Part shown: positions 46,876 to 60,737 of the stretch, in pieces
Position numbering within the stretch: the first letter of the stretch is position 1
How the letters are laid out: each line of letters opens with the position of its first letter
NCBI GenBank assembly: GCA_027604705.1
Contig: JADHYV010000029.1
Location: forward strand, 124,001 to 188,000
Length of the DNA: 64,000 nucleotides
Reading direction: 5' to 3'
DNA from: Allomyces arbusculus
Lineage: Eukaryota > Blastocladiomycota > Blastocladiomycetes > Blastocladiales > Blastocladiaceae
Made by a program: the position numbers and the translations under genes
Notes under the pieces: generated by a model
Databases searched by the model: none
What the model was told of the DNA's origin: nothing
What the model saw: only the letters and a program-made list of their open reading frames with translations

Positions 46876-47689
46876 TTACCGCGCCATTCCCGGCGCGGGC
46901 GCGTACCTGCGCTTGCCAATGTTGAAGGGCAGGTAGCGGTACTTGATCATGTGCCGGATCTGGCGGCGCATCGTGACGGCAAACAGCACAAAGAAGTAGA
47001 TGACGAGAATGGGCCAGAAGACGGGGATGTCGAAGACCTATTGGGATGTGGTCAGTGCCGCGTTAGTTTCTTTTCTGGCGTCAACACGCAGAACAGCAAC
47101 GAGTACCGAAAAGAACGAGCAGAACCACGCGAGCAAGATTGCGCGCATGGCATTGACCCAGGCCTTGAACTCGGGCAGCCGGCGAATGAACGGGCGAAAC
47201 TCCTCGTCCGACCGTGTTGGCAGGAACGAGGCCGGGCTGTTGCCGCCGCGCGAATGCTCCAAGTCGGCGAGCGGCACGTCGTCGTCGTCATCGTCGGCCA
47301 GCACGTCGAGCGCCGGGTCGAGCTTGGGCGAGAGGAACAGCAAGAGCAGCTGCAGCAGGTAGATGCCGAGCGCGTAGGTGACAATGTACCATCCTTGCAC
47401 GACCAGGATGCGCGCGAGGAAGCCAATCAGGAGCACGGCCACGGATAGCCATCGTGGCAGCGTGTAGGGCATCGACAGGTCGAGCAAGTGCTGCGCGCGC
47501 TACGTGGCATCAAGTCCTCGCGTCAGTCGCCGTTCGTGGGATCGCGCTTCACGCCGAGCGCTTGCGGCGAAGACCTGCTCAGCTGATGCGAGTCGGGATG
47601 GGATCAAGTACCCGTTGCAGCGCGGCGAGTTGCCGCTGCGCATTGGACACGGGCGTGTCGGGCAGGTCAAAGGAGCTTGGGCCCGTCAT
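46876..47689 (-). CDS. RER1: ER retention receptor Rer1
   Basis: Three exons, 47612-47689, 47107-47490 and 46876-47037; introns of 121 and 69 nt with GTACTT and GTACTC donors. The product has 207 residues. Family hallmarks are [36 protein letters not shown], an acidic loop (ADDDDDDVP), [38 protein letters not shown] and [20 protein letters not shown]. Four hydrophobic membrane segments fit the usual W-shaped topology. Rer1 returns ER membrane proteins from the early Golgi in COPI vesicles. The tail is short and ends in MAR. It is divergent from the CGR1-like gene, 523 bp away. Confidence 0.95.

Positions 47690-52592: not shown

Positions 52593-52624
<32 letters not shown>
52593..52624. repeat. 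(TC)16 microsatellite
   Basis: Sixteen perfect TC units lie in a pyrimidine-rich leader, 148 bases before the ATG of the short PDI-like gene. Confidence 0.9.
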
Positions 52625-52629
<5 letters not shown>

Positions 52630-52771
52630 CTCTCCCTCCCCCACGCGCCACAGTTCCCACAACACGCTGCGCATTCCGCTTCACGCCCGCGCGTTATTCG
52701 TACCCGCATCAAGCATCAGCCAAGCGGCCACCACAACGCAAGCCTTGCGACCATCACTCTACCAGGCCATC

Positions 52772-53669
52772 ATGAGGTTCAATTTGACCATCTCCCAACC
52801 ACTTGCCGCAATGCTGGCCCTGGTCGTACTCGCACTGGTCCAGGCCGTATCGTCATCGACTTTCGATGACGTGGACCGGCTTTGCTTCCGTTGGCACAAG
52901 GCGCCATCCAAAGCGATTACACTTACAGCTTCCACGTTTGACGACAAGATCCGCTCTGGGACGTGGTATGTGCCACAAGAAGTGGAGGGCGGCGTGGTTT
53001 CGAAGCGGCGTAGCGGATGCGAGCTGATTCACATTGATTTTGACGCGGTCGATGTGTAGGCTGGTGATGGTATGAGCAAACAAGTGACGAATGGGCGCCG
53101 TGGCAAAGATTCATGTTGATCTGACGTGATCGTGATTTTTTTTTCGTGCCATCCATAGTTTTACGGTCCGCTTTTGCCCCGGTCTTGGTCGCGAACCGTC
53201 AGCTTGACTCTCAATGAGCATGATCAAAATCCTGCTCCTCTAGTCCCTTTGTTTCCGTACTGCGAGGAACTCGCGCCCAAGTACGAGTGGATTGCCACGG
53301 CGGCGAACTCGTGGCTCCCCTTGCGCAAGTTTCACGTGGCGCGTGTCGACTGCTTCGCCGACGATCAGCTGTGCAGGCGCGACAGGATCTTCGCATTCCC
53401 GAGTGCGTAGATGAAACTTTATTGATTGACATGGGTTCGCAGATCGTGGATATCACTGACCGCCAATGCTCTCATCATAAAATTTTCCACAGCAATTTAT
53501 CTGTACGTGCCGTTGAACCGCAACCTGAGCACGCCGTACTCACCCTTCCGCTTCTCGACCGAACAGGTACACTGACGGTCAGCAAATCGAGGAAGTTTAC
53601 ATGAAGGACGTATCGCCCTCTGCTGTATTAAACTCCCTCCTTTTTCGATACATCAAGGGTGAAATTTAA
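52772..53669 (+). CDS. Short single-domain PDI-like paralog with altered active site
   Basis: Six exons: 52772-52965, 53060-53069, 53159-53165, 53244-53402, 53493-53502 and 53567-53669, encoding 160 residues. The signal peptide is MRFNLTISQPLAAMLALVVL continuing ALVQAVSS. One thioredoxin fold follows: LTASTFDDKIRSGTWLVM, FYVPLFPYCEELAPKYEW, ARVDCFADDQLCRRD, FPTIYLYTDGQQIEE and a stop after YIKGEI. Exons of 10, 7, 159 and 10 nt match the large PDI gene at 58.4-60.7 kb one for one. The active site CPHC of that gene reads FPYC here, so the attacking cysteine is lost while the frame stays open through six exons. The protein could be a redox-dead chaperone or regulator, or a recent pseudogene that has not yet gained stops. 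There is no ER-retention signal. Confidence 0.75.
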
Positions 53670-55190
53670 TAATGAAGGGTAGTGATTTGAGTTGGTGCTG
53701 AAATATATGACATCAGTTCTCATCGGAGTCAAACGAAATTTGATGTTGTTGACGTAAGGACGACAGAAAACACTTCAGCGTGTGCAAATGGTGCCAGATA
53801 ATGGACTTTAAAGTACAGTGCCGACTTCTGCGTGTGCAAATACGGTAGTGGGTATTCTGCAGGGGCGGGGCGATACGGTTGCGTGCTGGAGAAAGATGTG
53901 ATAGGCGAAATTCATTGATTGGGACTGGGCCTTGCTTTCTGACAGCACCGCAAGAAAGCACAAGTGCCGACTCGTTTCGCAAAAATGGTGCCATCTGAAT
54001 TCAGCTAATTCAAGCAAACTCGAGCGGTTGCCTCGGCACCCCCCGCCTGCTCCATAATTCAGCAGATTTAAGACTCGTACGTGGCTTGACGTGTAGACTT
54101 CACCTCCTCAATCGAGCACAAGTAAGGGCGTTCTCACAAATCAAGGGCATACAGCGTTAATTCTTGGTTCTGGAATCCAACTAGCGTCCCACGAGCTAAA
54201 ACAATTATTTCAAAGCACTCCACGTATATTTTCTCAAATGCACGACATCAACGCAAGTCAACCGTCCATCTCCACCCAGTTCGCACTCCAATCCACTCGC
54301 CTGGCGACCATGTCATTGCCACGACCATCGATTTCTGCCGAACGCATTGCACTCTTGTTGGCGAGGAATGAGGGCTATCCGTCGCGTTTCCGAGCAACTA
54401 CAGGAAGCAGGTGGCGTCGGGTTGTGAGCTTCAGCACGTAACCTTCAGTGTTCCGACGCGTGCTACGAAATGGTGCAGCGGCAACGCACTCGAGAGTGAC
54501 AAGGTGACGCGTACCGACCAGTTCAACACCTCAAGCGCGCGACCGCATCGTGAAGAGACGCCATGCTCGCGCTGACGCCACGCACACACTGCCGTGTGTC
54601 TGGGCGATGGGCAGCGAACTGTCAGCAACACACGCACGCATGTCTCAGTCCAGCTGCAAGAAGGGAGCGAACGTGAGACAGCAAGATGGCGCGTACCGGC
54701 CACACGCGCAATTCTGGGCCCCGCAGTAACTTTAGCCGCCCCTGTCGTGGAGCGCTCTGTGCACTCTGTTGTGTTAGTCGCTGGCATGGGTGGCGACGTG
54801 GTGGCTCATGGCGTCCGTGCGGGTTTCTGAATCGGAGCCAAAGGAACCACGATGCAGGCGACGACACACGTACTGCAGCCGCCGCCCTGCTCGTCCGTGC
54901 CGGCCACGCAGTATATGCACGATAGACGGGGTAGGGAGGTCGTGGCAGCGGAGGGATCGACGTGATGGGAGCGCCGCGGGCTCGGTCGTGGTGAGACATC
55001 ATGGCGACAAGAGCGTCCTGGCGTGAGCGAGCATGCCGACCAACGCTTGGCGACTGCAGAACCAAAGAGTGATTCAACCCCAACGGTTTGGTCAAACTCA
55101 ATTTATAACGAAGAAGGGATGGCGAGGAGACGCTCGTCCCAACGGTCCGATTTAGATTTTCTCCCAGCAAGCAAATCACATCACCAGCTC
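53670..55190. other. Intergenic stretch
   Basis: About 1.5 kb, AT-richer from 53670 to 54250. Short frames around 54240-54440 and 54600-54830 have no family resemblance. No gene was called. Confidence 0.4.
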
Positions 55191-55279
55191 CTGTGTTGAC
55201 GACGGTCAGCAAGAGCCTGTCGCTGCTGCAACGTTGTATACGAGAACTTCTAGTTGTAGGCAAGAGAACGGTGCTGTTT

Positions 55280-56920
55280 GATGAGAAGTCAAGGAAAACG
55301 AGGCGAATTCACAGCGACGTATCGCCCTCAAGGAACTTGTGCGCACTCTACAAGTGTTGTCACGCATATGGACGCCAAGTTTATGTTTGATGTGATGCAC
55401 CCCCTCAAGGATCACGAAAAGGACGTGCGTGTTATCTACAGGCTCATCATTGTTGCCAATACCTGCCATGACCGCCAAGTTGCTGGTCGAAATCTTCCAT
55501 GTTTGAACTCACCAGGCTATCCCAAGCTGCCATGTGCTCTCGCTGTCCCTTCAAGTTGGATGTGCTCTGTGTTGGCGCGCTGCCCAGGTGCAGCAATGAC
55601 GAAAAGAGTACCGCAGCAAGCGTTGGTGGTGTCCGATTCGATCTTTGGGTCACTCTCAGAACTTCGAATCGTAAAATTCGGCAATGGTACGACGAGCGGT
55701 TAGGTGAAGCGATCTTGTCTGTGCCGGGCGCTGCAAAGCATTTGATTAAAGTCAAGATTGGCAAAATTGAGGACGAATTGCTTTTCCTGTCCAATCTCGC
55801 ATTGCCTGCTGCTCGCAGGTTCACGGTTCAAGTCAAGTCAAACGATAACTGGGAGTTCGAGCTTCCAGACTTGCCATCATGTCGACGCTTGTTCATTTCC
55901 GACTGTGTACTCCATTTTTGCGACAGTGATAATGCTCAAGCAGTTCCTTGACCTGACCTCGCACCTTAATTCAACGGTCGTTGAGCATCGCATTGAGATT
56001 CTGGACCGGGTCGTCACCAAGTTGCCTTTGCGGATTACCCACATCGTTTCCGCTCGGTCAAGCGACTGAACATTGGTGTGACAAAGTTCGGTCGGATTTT
56101 CCCCCTTGATGGCAGTCACGCGGCAGAAACTGATAGACCTGCGCCTTCGCGATGATTGCGACTGGAAGATGCCGATTCCGATGCATGGCTAACTTGCAGG
56201 TCAACCTCACGTCGCTCACGCTCGATTTCGGGTATGGGATGGGGCCGTGCCTGCCATGCCTGTTGCCGACGCACGTCGTGGAACTGGCGACTCTTCCGCA
56301 ACTTTGCACCCTCGACGCTGCCATTGTTCCTTCTGGCACGCAAGAACAGGAACAGATGGTCATGGCGTCGGATACCAACGATCTGCTCACGCTCAACAAA
56401 TCGTGCGAGTAATTTCCGTCATTGAAACACTTGCATTCTACATCGCCTCTCTTCATGCTTCTCCGTTCATTCACGCTCGCGCCGCTCGAGTCATTCGTTG
56501 TGCGCGTCGTGCTTGCACATTTTGGGAACGAAGTTGTCATTCGGTTCCCGTTCATGCCGCTTCTAAAAAGCTTCTCAATAGTTCATGAAGACCTGCTTGA
56601 CACGTACGATGGTTCGGGCACTGGCGCAGACGGCGATGCGAATGACTCGGACGACGATGATTCTATTCGTATGCAAGGGCAAGATGTGACGGTGCTGGAC
56701 GCTATGTCAGATGATGTCAGATGTTGCCCCACGGTTCAACTCTCTTCAGGTCTGTAACGGCCCCATGTCGTGGGAGACGACGCTCAAACGCCCAACGCTC
56801 ACCAACATTATCCTGCCAGCGGAAATCTGGAATGACTTTTCAAGGTCCGACATGGACTTGCCAGCCCTAGCCGAATTGACGCTCACGATGAGTGGGTTTA
56901 ACCGGGGGAACCCCATCTAG
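55280..56920 (+). pseudogene. F-box/LRR-like relic 3
   Basis: The pieces run in the same order as relic 1. F-box-like MTAKLLVEIFHV changes frame to ELTRLSQAAMCSRCPFKLDV. Next come DLWVTLRTSNRKIRQWYDER and LLFLSNLALPAARRFTVQ. FPSLKHLHS-like text continues as SPLFMLLRSFTLAPLESFVV, with an acidic DSDDDDS patch. GPMSWETTLKRPTLTNIILP and MDLPALAELTL complete the series. There are at least four frame changes. It is read as a decayed F-box/LRR gene; extensive splicing cannot be excluded. Confidence 0.6.
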
Positions 56921-57399
56921 CCGATAGTTGTGGTTGTGGTCGCGGCAGGGGCGACAGAGAATGCCCAGTACAGGCCAAGACGTCGTAAAGACGGTTCGGT
57001 TGGCGTTTGGCAATGCCTGTGGGATTTGAGCATGACAGGTCTCTTGGTACTGACGCATGTTTGTTCGAATCAACAGTGGCGCTCCTCGACTGATGCATGC
57101 CGCGCCGAAGCAGTTGGAATAGCAGTACTATTGCCGTTACGTGCAGAGTGTTGAACTTGGTGCAGGGAGGCGGAGGGATTTGTCGTTTGCCCTCCTGTCT
57201 GATGCTCAGCAATCGCGGAGCAGTGACGTGGAACTAGATCCATCGCTCCTTTCCTCACGTCAAGTCGTGTTGACTGCCGACTCAATTCTCTCTCCCGCAC
57301 CGCGCCGCGTCGCTCTCCAACATCCTCCAACTGCCACCAACCACCACCACGACGACCACGGAGCACGGAGCCGCTCACGGCGCGTCCGCGCGCTCGCTA

Positions 57400-57640
57400 G
57401 AAAGAGATTTAACTCTTTGGTTTGACTCGTCACCATTGAAAGTGCTCTAATTGGCGCACCAGCACAGAGCAAATCCAATCTGATGGGACAGCGAGAGTGC
57501 ACGGCAGCTTGGGATCGTGTGGCGAGATCAAATATGCAGGAAGAGTTCGATCAGCAATAGCAACTTGGCGGCCATCAACATCGGCGACAATGACAAGCCT
57601 GTAGATGATTCGCGCCATGGTTTATCATAGCTAGTGAAGG
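57400..57640 (-). pseudogene. F-box-like relic 4, inverted fragment
   Basis: The minus strand repeats the F-box region of relic 3. DLATRSQAAVHSRCPIRLDL matches ELTRLSQAAMCSRCPFKLDV. In the companion frame PKLPCTLAVPSDWICSVL matches PKLPCALAVPSSWMCSVL. Only this N-terminal part is present, in opposite orientation to relic 3 and about 1.8 kb away. Confidence 0.65.
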
Positions 57641-58393
57641 GTCGCTTGCGTGGCTAAGGAAACATCGCTTGCAATCAGTGAGCGGGTGAGAGCTGAGGTC
57701 TTGACAAGCGAGACGTAATTGGATGTGAACAGCCGTTGTCATCACCTGATGAGCGTCGACCAAGTTTCCTCGACCAAGTCAGAAGCAACCAGCAGTCATA
57801 CAGCGCTCTGATCATTCATCATGCTTGCACAGATTACGACTTTGACGCCCCGGACCCCCCGGACCTCGGGGACCAATGTCAAACTGCGGCCAAGAGCGAC
57901 TCACGCCGCAATTTATCTGAGTCGTCCTGACAGGACTTTGTGTCTGGTCTCGTAGCGTGCGGTGGCGATCTCCTCGCTCACTTCGTGCATATTGCTGATT
58001 GCGCTGCTCCAACACATCTGTCGCGCGCACTGCATGCCGGATATTCCAGCTGTCACTGCCGGGGAGGTTGAATTGGCGACGAGGAGCACCACGCGTCAAG
58101 GCTTGCATGCCACATCTGTCAGCGTGTTCAGTTCGCCCTGGCCTTGGCGCACGCCAATTGAAACGCCAGCTCTTGGTTTCTCCTCCCAGCCGGCCTTCGC
58201 GACGGCGAGCTGCAACCTCCGCGACACACGCAAGTCTGCACAACACGCTGCAGTCCGCTCTACCTACGCGTGCCCAAGCACGGCCGCCGCAGTAAGCGAC
58301 AGCAACCGCACGCTTGGCAGCTCCCAACCAGCAACCACCGCCACCAACGTGTCATTTCGGCCAGCTCCCGACTCGCCCAATTTCCGCAACACC
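57641..58393. promoter_or_regulatory. Upstream region of the transmembrane PDI gene
   Basis: About 750 bases. A plus frame stays open from 57962 into the PDI start, but it lacks an ATG with a signal peptide that would precede the fold sensibly. It is treated as leader and promoter. Confidence 0.45.
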
Positions 58394-60737
58394 ATGTGGC
58401 TCATGCACGTCGCACGGCCGTCCCGCCGGCCGTTGACCGCGGCGGCGATCGTGGCCGCGTTGGCCACGTTTGCCATGATGCTCGTGGCGGTCCAAGTGGT
58501 CTCGGCGACGCCGCGCGCACCCGCGACATGGCATACGGGCCCGACCAATATTATTCCGTTGACGAGCAAGAATTTTGACGATAAAGTCAAGTCCGGGACG
58601 TGGTACGTGGATCGCTGCGCGTTTGATGAAGAATGACGTGAGGTTGGGAAACTGATCTGGTCGGGGCCGGGTGCGGAATTTAGGATGATTGAGGTACGAC
58701 GAGTCGTCAAGACGACTGCACGGAGCCGCGTACGAACGTGGATTGACAAGATGGTTGTGACCGCGCCGCTGGCCAATTTTCTAGTTTTTCGGTACGCTCG
58801 CCCGCCTGATCTCACTTAGCCTGGGACTCTTGGACTCACGACCGACCCTCTAGCCCCGTGGTGCCCGCACTGCAAGAAACTCGCGCCCAAGTACGAGAAA
58901 CTCGCGACGACCGCGCTCCCGTGGCGCGCCGAACACGACTTCTACGTCGCGCGCGTCGACTGCGTAGCGGACCAACCGCTGTGCGACCGCGCCAAGGTGG
59001 ACGGGTTCCCGAGTACGTGGGTTTCGCGTTGACGAGCCGTGATTTTGTGCTGACCGCCATGTGTTCCCCGTCGCGAATCTCGGATAGCGATTTTTCTGTA
59101 CGTTGCCTATGACCTTCTCGCGAAAACCGTGTTTCCAGAGCCAAACTCACCGTTTGTACGACACTAGGTACAACAAGGGCCAACAGATTGAGGAGTACGA
59201 CACGGACCTGTCGGCCGCCGGCCTGATCAAGTACGCCAAGTCGGTCATTGCACGGTACCCGAAGGGTGCCTCCTCTTCCGCCCCCGCTGCAGCTCCCGCG
59301 GCTCCTGCTGCCGCGGCCAAGTCGACCACGGGCCACAAGGCCGCGACCGACGCGGCGCCCGCCCCTCCTGTCCCTGCCTCGCGCGCGGCCAAGGACGCCG
59401 AGTTCCAGCAACTTGCGGCAGAACGCAATGTGCCGGTGCCCGGGATTGGCAAGTACGGGAAAGTCGTCGACTTGAAGTCGACCAATTTTGACGAGGTGGT
59501 CTCGCAGGGTGGGCCGTGGTTGTTGGAGTTTTACGCGCCGTGGTGTGGCCATTGCCATGTACGTTTTGCTCTTTCTTGGCTCTCAGAGCGCGAGCACCGC
59601 CTTACTCTTCCGTTACAAAACTAGCACCTCGAACCCATCTACGACCAACTCGGCAAAGCCCTCGCCGGTAAAATGAACGTGGCCCGAATCGACGCCGACC
59701 TCGACACGGCGCTCGGTGCGCGGTTCGGGATCAAGGGGTACCCGACGATCAAGCTGTACCGCGGCGGGCAGGCGGTCGAGTACCGCGGCCCGCGCACTCT
59801 GCAGGCGCTCTACGAGTACGCGCTGTCGGCGGTCCAGCCCGCGCCGGTGCCGCTCGTGGATGCCGCGCAATGGGCGCAGACGACCAAGGAGCATGAGGTG
59901 GCCGTCGCGTACGTGTATGACGAAGCGACGAGCAAGGAGGCGACGCGTGCGTTCTTGAGTGCGATTGAGCAGTGGACTGGCGCAGGGGTCGGGGCGGTGG
60001 TCGCGTCGAGCGATGCCGCGGTGGCGTCGGAGGTCAAGCGGCCGGCGGTCGTGGTCGCGCGCCGTGGGTACGACGAGGTGGTGAGTCTTGACATCAAAGG
60101 CGGCGATTCAGCGGCGATTGCTGCGTTTGTCCGCGCCAACCAGTACGCGCTGGTGCCCGAGTTGACCGATTCGAACGTGGGCGACCTGATGCAGGCCGGC
60201 AAGATCCGCGGCAGTGCGACTGCGCGGCACATTGTCCTGCTCGCGATTCTCGACGCGGCGCACGCCGCACCCGACTCGCGCGAACAGACGGTGATCCAGC
60301 AGGCCGCGCGTGACTTGCGCGCCAAGCACGCCAAGGACGACTCGGTCAACGTGCAGGCCATCTGGGTCGATGGCGTCAAGTGGTCCGAATACGTGCAGCG
60401 TGTGTATGGGTTGACGGCTCGCGACTTGCCGCGCGTTGTCGTTTCGGACCCGCACGCGGAAACGTTTTGGGCCAAGAACCAACAGGGCGAGCCGGTCGCG
60501 TTTACGCGCGCGGCGCTCGTGGCGGCGGTCGACGGGGTGGTGAGTGGGGATGGCGGCGAGTTGGTCGCGCAGCATACGCGCGGGGCTATGGCCGGGTATG
60601 TGCAGCGCGTGGCCGGCGCGGTGCAGGGGACGCCGACGTGGGTGATGGTTGCGGGTGTGGGTTTCGTCGCGGTCGCGGCGTGGGCGCTGTGTTGCCGCGG
60701 GGATGCGGACGAGGGGGATGGGCGCAAGCGCGACTAG
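58394..60737 (+). CDS. Transmembrane protein disulfide isomerase (TMX3/Eps1-like)
   Basis: Seven exons: 58394-58602, 58684-58693, 58785-58791, 58854-59012, 59088-59097, 59168-59558 and 59625-60737, giving 632 residues. Three are microexons of 10, 7 and 10 nt, needed to rebuild SGTWMIEFFAPWCPHCKK and FPTIFLYNKGQQIEEYD. The signal-anchor-like start is MWLMHVARPSRRPLTAAAIV. The first thioredoxin domain has CPHC. An Ala/Pro linker precedes a second with GGPWLLEFYAPWCGHCH and GIKGYPTIKLYRGG. Two redox-inactive b-like regions follow, then a membrane helix near residues 600-620 (WVMVAGVGFVAVAAWALCC) and a short basic-acidic tail (DGRKRD). It should be a type I ER membrane oxidoreductase. It differs from soluble PDI by the membrane anchor and lack of an HDEL tail. 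Confidence 0.92.

Follow-up and report, generated by a model that had tools for sequence, protein, structure and literature searches.

Very short internal coding exons are known from several gene families of fungi and plants. The Fusarium CYP621A P450 genes carry a 1-nucleotide (nt) exon with read support (PMC12940212), the shortest exon reported for the P450 genes of Phanerochaete chrysosporium is 6 bp (PMC1184071), Trichoderma Xlr2 contains a switched 20-nt microexon (PMC11121469) and, in plants, 45 conserved microexon clusters have been described with RNA-seq support (PMC8831610). Here we analyse a 64-kb window of the Allomyces arbusculus genome (contig JADHYV010000029.1, positions 124,001 to 188,000), in which two paralogous protein disulfide isomerase (PDI) genes of the endoplasmic reticulum (ER) type very probably harbor three constitutive microexons of 10, 7 and 10 nt in their first thioredoxin domain, inherited from a shared ancestor and spliced by intron definition. 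A search of the open-licence literature found no report of a microexon triple within the thioredoxin core of a pair of paralogous genes, no paper combining microexons, fungi and protein disulfide isomerase, and none on Allomyces or other early-diverging fungi with microexons. The kind of exon is thus already known, and the present member of it, the PDI triple, is well supported and not unprecedented.

As in Fusarium CYP621A, the microexons are recognized here by the fact that a conserved motif cannot be rebuilt otherwise, and with Phanerochaete the PDI genes share a fungal gene family, small introns and exons of down to a few nucleotides (6 bp in the P450 genes). Like that of Xlr2, they lie inside a conserved domain and have lengths that are not multiples of three (20 nt in Xlr2). 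There are also differences: Fusarium has one read-supported 1-nt exon in orthologues and the inclusion of the Xlr2 microexon changes with glucose, whereas the three exons described here fall in one domain of two paralogs and are read from sequence alone; the microexons of Phanerochaete are scattered over many P450 genes and, as far as the consulted text of that report goes, do not form a fixed triple. The plant clusters, too, are made up of 1-15-nt internal coding exons whose size and phase are fixed within a protein family and which annotation often misses, but they are of plant origin and RNA-seq-backed, and the word 'disulfide' does not occur in the main text of PMC8831610. A sequence-only reading of the window had placed a 7-nt exon near the lower limit for splicing, which is overstated in view of the 1-nt (PMC12940212) and 6-bp (PMC1184071) fungal exons mentioned in these sources.

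The longer of the two genes (58394-60737, forward strand) consists of seven exons that join to 1899 nt and encode 632 amino acids without an internal stop. Exon 1 (58394-58602) encodes a hydrophobic N-terminus and the start of the first thioredoxin domain and ends within the W codon of SGTW. It is followed by microexon 1 (58684-58693, 10 nt, W-M-I-E), microexon 2 (58785-58791, 7 nt, F-F-A), the 159-nt exon 4 (58854-59012, PWCPHC to GFP) and microexon 3 (59088-59097, 10 nt, T-I-F-L, directly after the conserved FP). Exon 6 (59168-59558) covers the end of the first domain, a linker and the second thioredoxin domain up to CGHCH, and exon 7 (59625-60737) the remainder of the second domain, a Thioredoxin_6 stretch and a C-terminal hydrophobic segment (residues 601-619). 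Across the microexons the protein reads T-W-M-I-E-F-F-A-P-W-C-P-H-C and G-F-P-T-I-F-L-Y, and upon joining both TWMIEFFAPWCPHC and GFPTIFLY are restored. The shorter gene (52772-53669, also on the forward strand) has six exons, 483 nt when joined, and encodes 160 amino acids, again without an internal stop. Its exon 1 (52772-52965) is followed by microexon 1 (53060-53069, 10 nt, W-L-V-M), microexon 2 (53159-53165, 7 nt, F-Y-V), the 159-nt exon 4 (53244-53402, with FPYC at the place of the long-gene CPHC), microexon 3 (53493-53502, 10 nt, T-I-Y-L) and a last exon (53567-53669) with the stop codon after a single thioredoxin domain; the corresponding stretches read T-W-L-V-M-F-Y-V-P-L-F-P-Y-C and A-F-P-T-I-Y-L-Y.

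All 11 introns, six in the long and five in the short gene, are GT-AG and 62-94 nt in length. The five shared introns differ in length and have the phases 2,0,1,1,2 in both genes, and the exons between them have the same lengths (10, 7, 159, 10). The three small exons of each gene thus are microexons by length (internal coding exons of 1-15 nt), by their AG and GT flanks and by the frame that they restore. In these respects the sequence-only reading was borne out: the exon coordinates it gave for the two genes are all correct, with AG before and GT after each exon; the microexons are required to rebuild the W-x-x-x-F-F-A-P-W-C motif and the F-P-T-I-F-L region in an open frame; and the common lengths and phases recur as claimed. 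Its attribution of the shared structure to inheritance from one ancestral gene is the natural reading given the paralogy, the phases and the ranking of splice chains described below. Of its interpretation, the supposed limit on exon length is not supported, and the precise recognition that it proposed is at most putative, one donor of the short gene (GTCCGC at 53166) departing from the others.

The long protein contains two Pfam thioredoxin stretches (PF00085, E-value 2.3e-51) with active sites CPHC at residue 79 and CGHC at residue 258. It scores 186.6 bits against the PDI domain model TIGR01126 (pdi_dom), above the cut-off of 107.2, and 226.9 bits against the model of classical ER PDI (TIGR01130), below the cut-off of 344.25; we therefore consider it PDI-type without filing it in that subfamily. 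In Kyte-Doolittle windows it is hydrophobic near residues 13-39 and about 600-620, which makes it a PDI-type protein with a putative C-terminal anchor. Among sequences of solved structures, the first domain of the long gene is best matched by TXNDC5 (PDB 8eky) with an E-value of 2.1e-57, and Eps1p (PDB 4tve) is found at 1e-17. Compared with these two proteins, the order here is a CPHC domain, a CGHC domain, the Thioredoxin_6 stretch and the C-terminal hydrophobic segment. This layout may resemble that of Eps1. When the three thioredoxin domains of TXNDC5 (from the PDB) were aligned with both proteins, the alignment was gap-free at all five junctions, and the gaps fell within the 159-nt exon. 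In DNAJC10, the second match shown, some domains have small insertions just before T-W, i.e. upstream of microexon 1, and the second domain of the long gene likewise has one extra column there.

These alignments bear on the possibility that the genes have stwintrons (nested twin introns) instead of microexons, with the stretches between the introns never present in the mRNA. Published abstracts describe complex fungal introns that are excised one step after another, but dropping microexons 1 and 2 leads to a stop after 133 codons in the long gene and after 123 in the short one, before the normal stop in both, and removes WMIEFFA, which is gap-free in the alignment with the TXNDC5 domains. We consider this explanation very improbable.

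To rank the structures, GT-AG chains joining the flanking exons were enumerated, and their open translations were scored by comparison with thioredoxin domain 2 of the long gene itself, which has no introns at the microexon positions. With the ends fixed, the chain proposed for microexons 1 and 2 of the long gene comes first among 54 open chains (122 against 109 for the next) and that for microexon 3 is the only open chain. When the outer splice sites were allowed to move within ~60 bases, with at most two internal exons, it ranks first of 1661 open chains in the long gene (142 against 129), and the proposed chain of the short gene ranks first of 2799. In the short gene the 7-nt exon is present in all six of the best listed chains of this free-end test. 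Dinucleotide-preserving shuffles of the inner sequence reached the observed score for microexons 1 and 2 in 0 of 1000 cases in either gene, and for microexon 3 in 2 of 1000 (long) and 3 of 1000 (short). It could still be argued that AG and GT dinucleotides merely happen to permit the motifs to be rebuilt, open chains being as numerous as they are, but shuffled sequence rarely attains the score and the two genes agree in these lengths and phases, which leaves coincidence with almost negligible probability.

Splice sites were expressed as percentiles built from five introns of other genes in the window. An earlier yardstick of eight introns of other genes had been found with a trained gene-finder model and was partly circular, and another set of nine included one intron of the long gene. 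A run without the splice model at the looser penalty yielded 23 introns, among which five of the eight recur, as judged by gene and end letters; the percentiles were recomputed with these five, upon which several drop, and the other 18 were left unused. On this scale 10 of the 11 donors lie at 0.846 or above and nine of the 11 acceptors at 0.902 or above, with ranges of 0.846-0.997 (donors) and 0.681-0.992 (acceptors) in the long gene and of 0.764-0.987 and 0.748-0.999 in the short gene. Branch-site-like CTRAY words occur in six of the 11 introns. The short-gene donor at 53166, GTCCGC, deviates from the other donors. Taken together, the splice structure of the long gene has good support and that of the short gene fair support.

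The donors of the long gene share a further property, as all six (58603, 58694, 58792, 59013, 59098 and 59559) begin with GTACG. Within the window GTACGT occurs 20 times on the forward and 10 times on the reverse strand, and GTAAGT three and four times. A lineage-specific donor with C at position +4 is possible; this position is mixed in the run made without the trained splice model (11 C, 8 G, 3 T and 1 A among 23 introns).

Several observations weigh against the proposed structures. The exon structures of both PDI genes are predictions from the genomic sequence. The acceptors ending at 58683 (0.681) and 53059 (0.748) and the donor at 53403 (0.764) are mediocre, and a CTRAY word is missing from five of the 11 introns. 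In the short gene the free-end win is narrow, with a margin of 2 points (101 against 99), and with fixed ends a chain of 4+6+7 nt outscores the 10+7 chain on homology alone (83 against 80). The former depends on poor sites (its donors rank at percentiles 0.490 and 0.037 and its acceptor at 0.306 among all such sites of the window), and a combined score that includes the splice sites, weighted as we chose, puts the 10+7 chain first with 19.8 against 13.1 for the next. A penalised gene finder that had these very introns as its training set divided the long gene into exons of 209, 10, 193, 10, 391 and 1113 nt at the looser penalty and of 209, 10, 197, 391 and 1113 nt at the stricter one; at neither penalty did it predict the 7-nt exon or call the short gene. 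The finder run without a splice model and with internal exons of at least 60 nt produced a long gene free of microexons (213, 197, 391 and 1113 nt), an outcome that is uninformative because the length limit precludes finding them. Of the 15 window genes predicted at the looser penalty, the long PDI gene is the only one with internal exons below 50 nt, which is weak evidence since the finder was trained on these introns; one other predicted gene starts with a 6-nt first exon. A first gene finder was discarded because of hundreds of false exons, and its run of 10, 7, 159, 10 and 391 nt was given no weight.

Microexons 1 and 2 would encode the hydrophobic strand that runs up to the CxxC site, and the strand directly after the conserved proline would come from microexon 3, assignments that we take from the thioredoxin fold. 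Assuming that the genes are expressed, each of their short introns (62-94 nt) is most likely recognised as a unit by plain intron definition, so that exon length would matter little. Intron definition depends on the length of the intron and not of the exon, according to the consulted part of PMC8624252. As a 7-nt exon can hardly accommodate both splice complexes at once, one flanking intron should be removed first, and the microexon would then lie inside a larger exon before the second intron leaves. Selection on the protein would suffice to preserve the splice sites and exon lengths. Each microexon length is 1 mod 3 and hence any single skip shifts the frame, from which we infer that the microexons are constitutive. 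Up to the first stop, single skips of microexons 1, 2 and 3 leave 109, 110 and 147 codons (of 632) open in the long gene and 135, 136 and 135 codons in the short gene. With an intron retained, a stop is met in eight of 11 cases, and long-gene intron 2 and short-gene introns 3 and 5 are stop-free to the intron end.

The same early stops, which follow each single skip (codons 109-147 of 632 in the long gene) as well as the joint skip of microexons 1 and 2, would be expected if inclusion were switched and skipping turned the isomerase off by frameshift, as a comparison with Trichoderma Xlr2 may suggest, a switched 20-nt fungal microexon being described in the consulted part of PMC11121469. In the short gene, however, the single-skip stops come only ~25 codons early, the microexons form part of the catalytic core and the majority of donors have high percentiles. 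None of the present results, which are all drawn from the genomic sequence, points to such regulation, and we regard it as improbable. A second product could also arise if the three microexons formed a coordinated cassette, skipped together. When all three (27 nt) are left out, both genes are open to the normal stop, with the 159-nt exon in another frame, and the product lacks the first thioredoxin active site; if real, this would be a frame-switched protein common to both paralogs. As the same shifted frame is open in 1557 of 4167 blocks of 159 nt taken from nine coding stretches of the window, the chance that both genes are open is ~0.14, and the open frame was therefore rejected as evidence. 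We give the cassette very little credence and retain constitutive inclusion of all three microexons.

The two proteins are identical at 50 of 112 aligned residues, and a rough Nei-Gojobori estimate over 111 codons gives a synonymous divergence (dS) of 1.09 and a nonsynonymous divergence (dN) of 0.48. Exon 4 has the same length in both genes and is identical at 111 of 159 bases, and microexons 1, 2 and 3 are identical at 5/10, 6/7 and 8/10. In blastn comparisons of the gene regions, exon 4 plus a few bases on its flanks is matched strongly and the end of exon 1 weakly (E-value 0.006); otherwise only pieces of at most 23 bases are found, at E-values of 0.075 or worse. Gene duplication accounts most simply for the shared microexon pattern. 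Most likely the ancestral gene already had the five shared introns when it was duplicated, and both copies have kept them since, with their sequences diverging. In the long gene, the single intron of the second thioredoxin domain lies elsewhere, after CGHCH, and thus no intron position is common to the two domains; either the microexon introns are younger than the domains or the second domain has lost them. Upstream of both genes (52658-52680 and 58239-58259) lies a 23-base stretch that is 87% identical (blastn E-value 0.075), possibly a remnant of a common 5' sequence or a chance match.

The short protein has one thioredoxin domain (Pfam E-value 2.2e-13) and a hydrophobic N-terminus, and scores 49.2 bits against pdi_dom, below the cut-off of 107.2. 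At residue 74 it has FPYC instead of CPHC and hence lacks the first active-site cysteine, and with it the CxxC motif, in an open frame. Because of this loss the short paralog is probably no normal isomerase but a non-oxidoreductase form, i.e. a binding protein or pseudoenzyme, or else a gene on its way out. We consider it possible, if rather unlikely, that it is already a pseudogene and that only the long gene is truly spliced this way, which would be compatible with the microexon reading of the long gene. The cysteine loss, the truncation after one domain, two donors off the pattern (GTCCGC and GTGCGT) and the failure of the gene finder to call it would fit this, but the 160-codon frame is open over six exons, all five introns are GT-AG, the hydrophobic N-terminus is retained and exon 4 is conserved as described. 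The pairwise dN/dS of ~0.44 also speaks against decay, though it does not separate the two branches.

Four scans for relatives, two of viral contigs and two of prokaryote genome contigs, found nothing in two cases and otherwise gave matches at the level of the match table, viz., one locus at 33% identity over query positions 298-374 in the viral collection and seven loci in bacterial or archaeal records among the prokaryotes. As for the surroundings, a CT microsatellite (52593-52626) lies upstream of the short gene, ~150 bases from its start, and coding-like stretches in which the finder called no gene lie between the PDI genes (55300-56920). About 5 kb from the short gene, on the reverse strand (46876-47472), a two-exon gene for the ER retrieval receptor Rer1 is predicted (PF03248, E-value 1.6e-66). 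A frame at 233-2392 matches class-III aminotransferase and AAA_26 and resembles a fused biotin-synthesis gene. No tRNA gene and no Rfam family was detected when the window was scanned for them.

The two PDI genes offer a clean case for how a short-intron spliceosome handles two adjacent microexons. They also caution that the catalytic core of an ER folding enzyme can go missing when genes are modelled without transcripts, as our simple gene finder lost the 7-nt exon.

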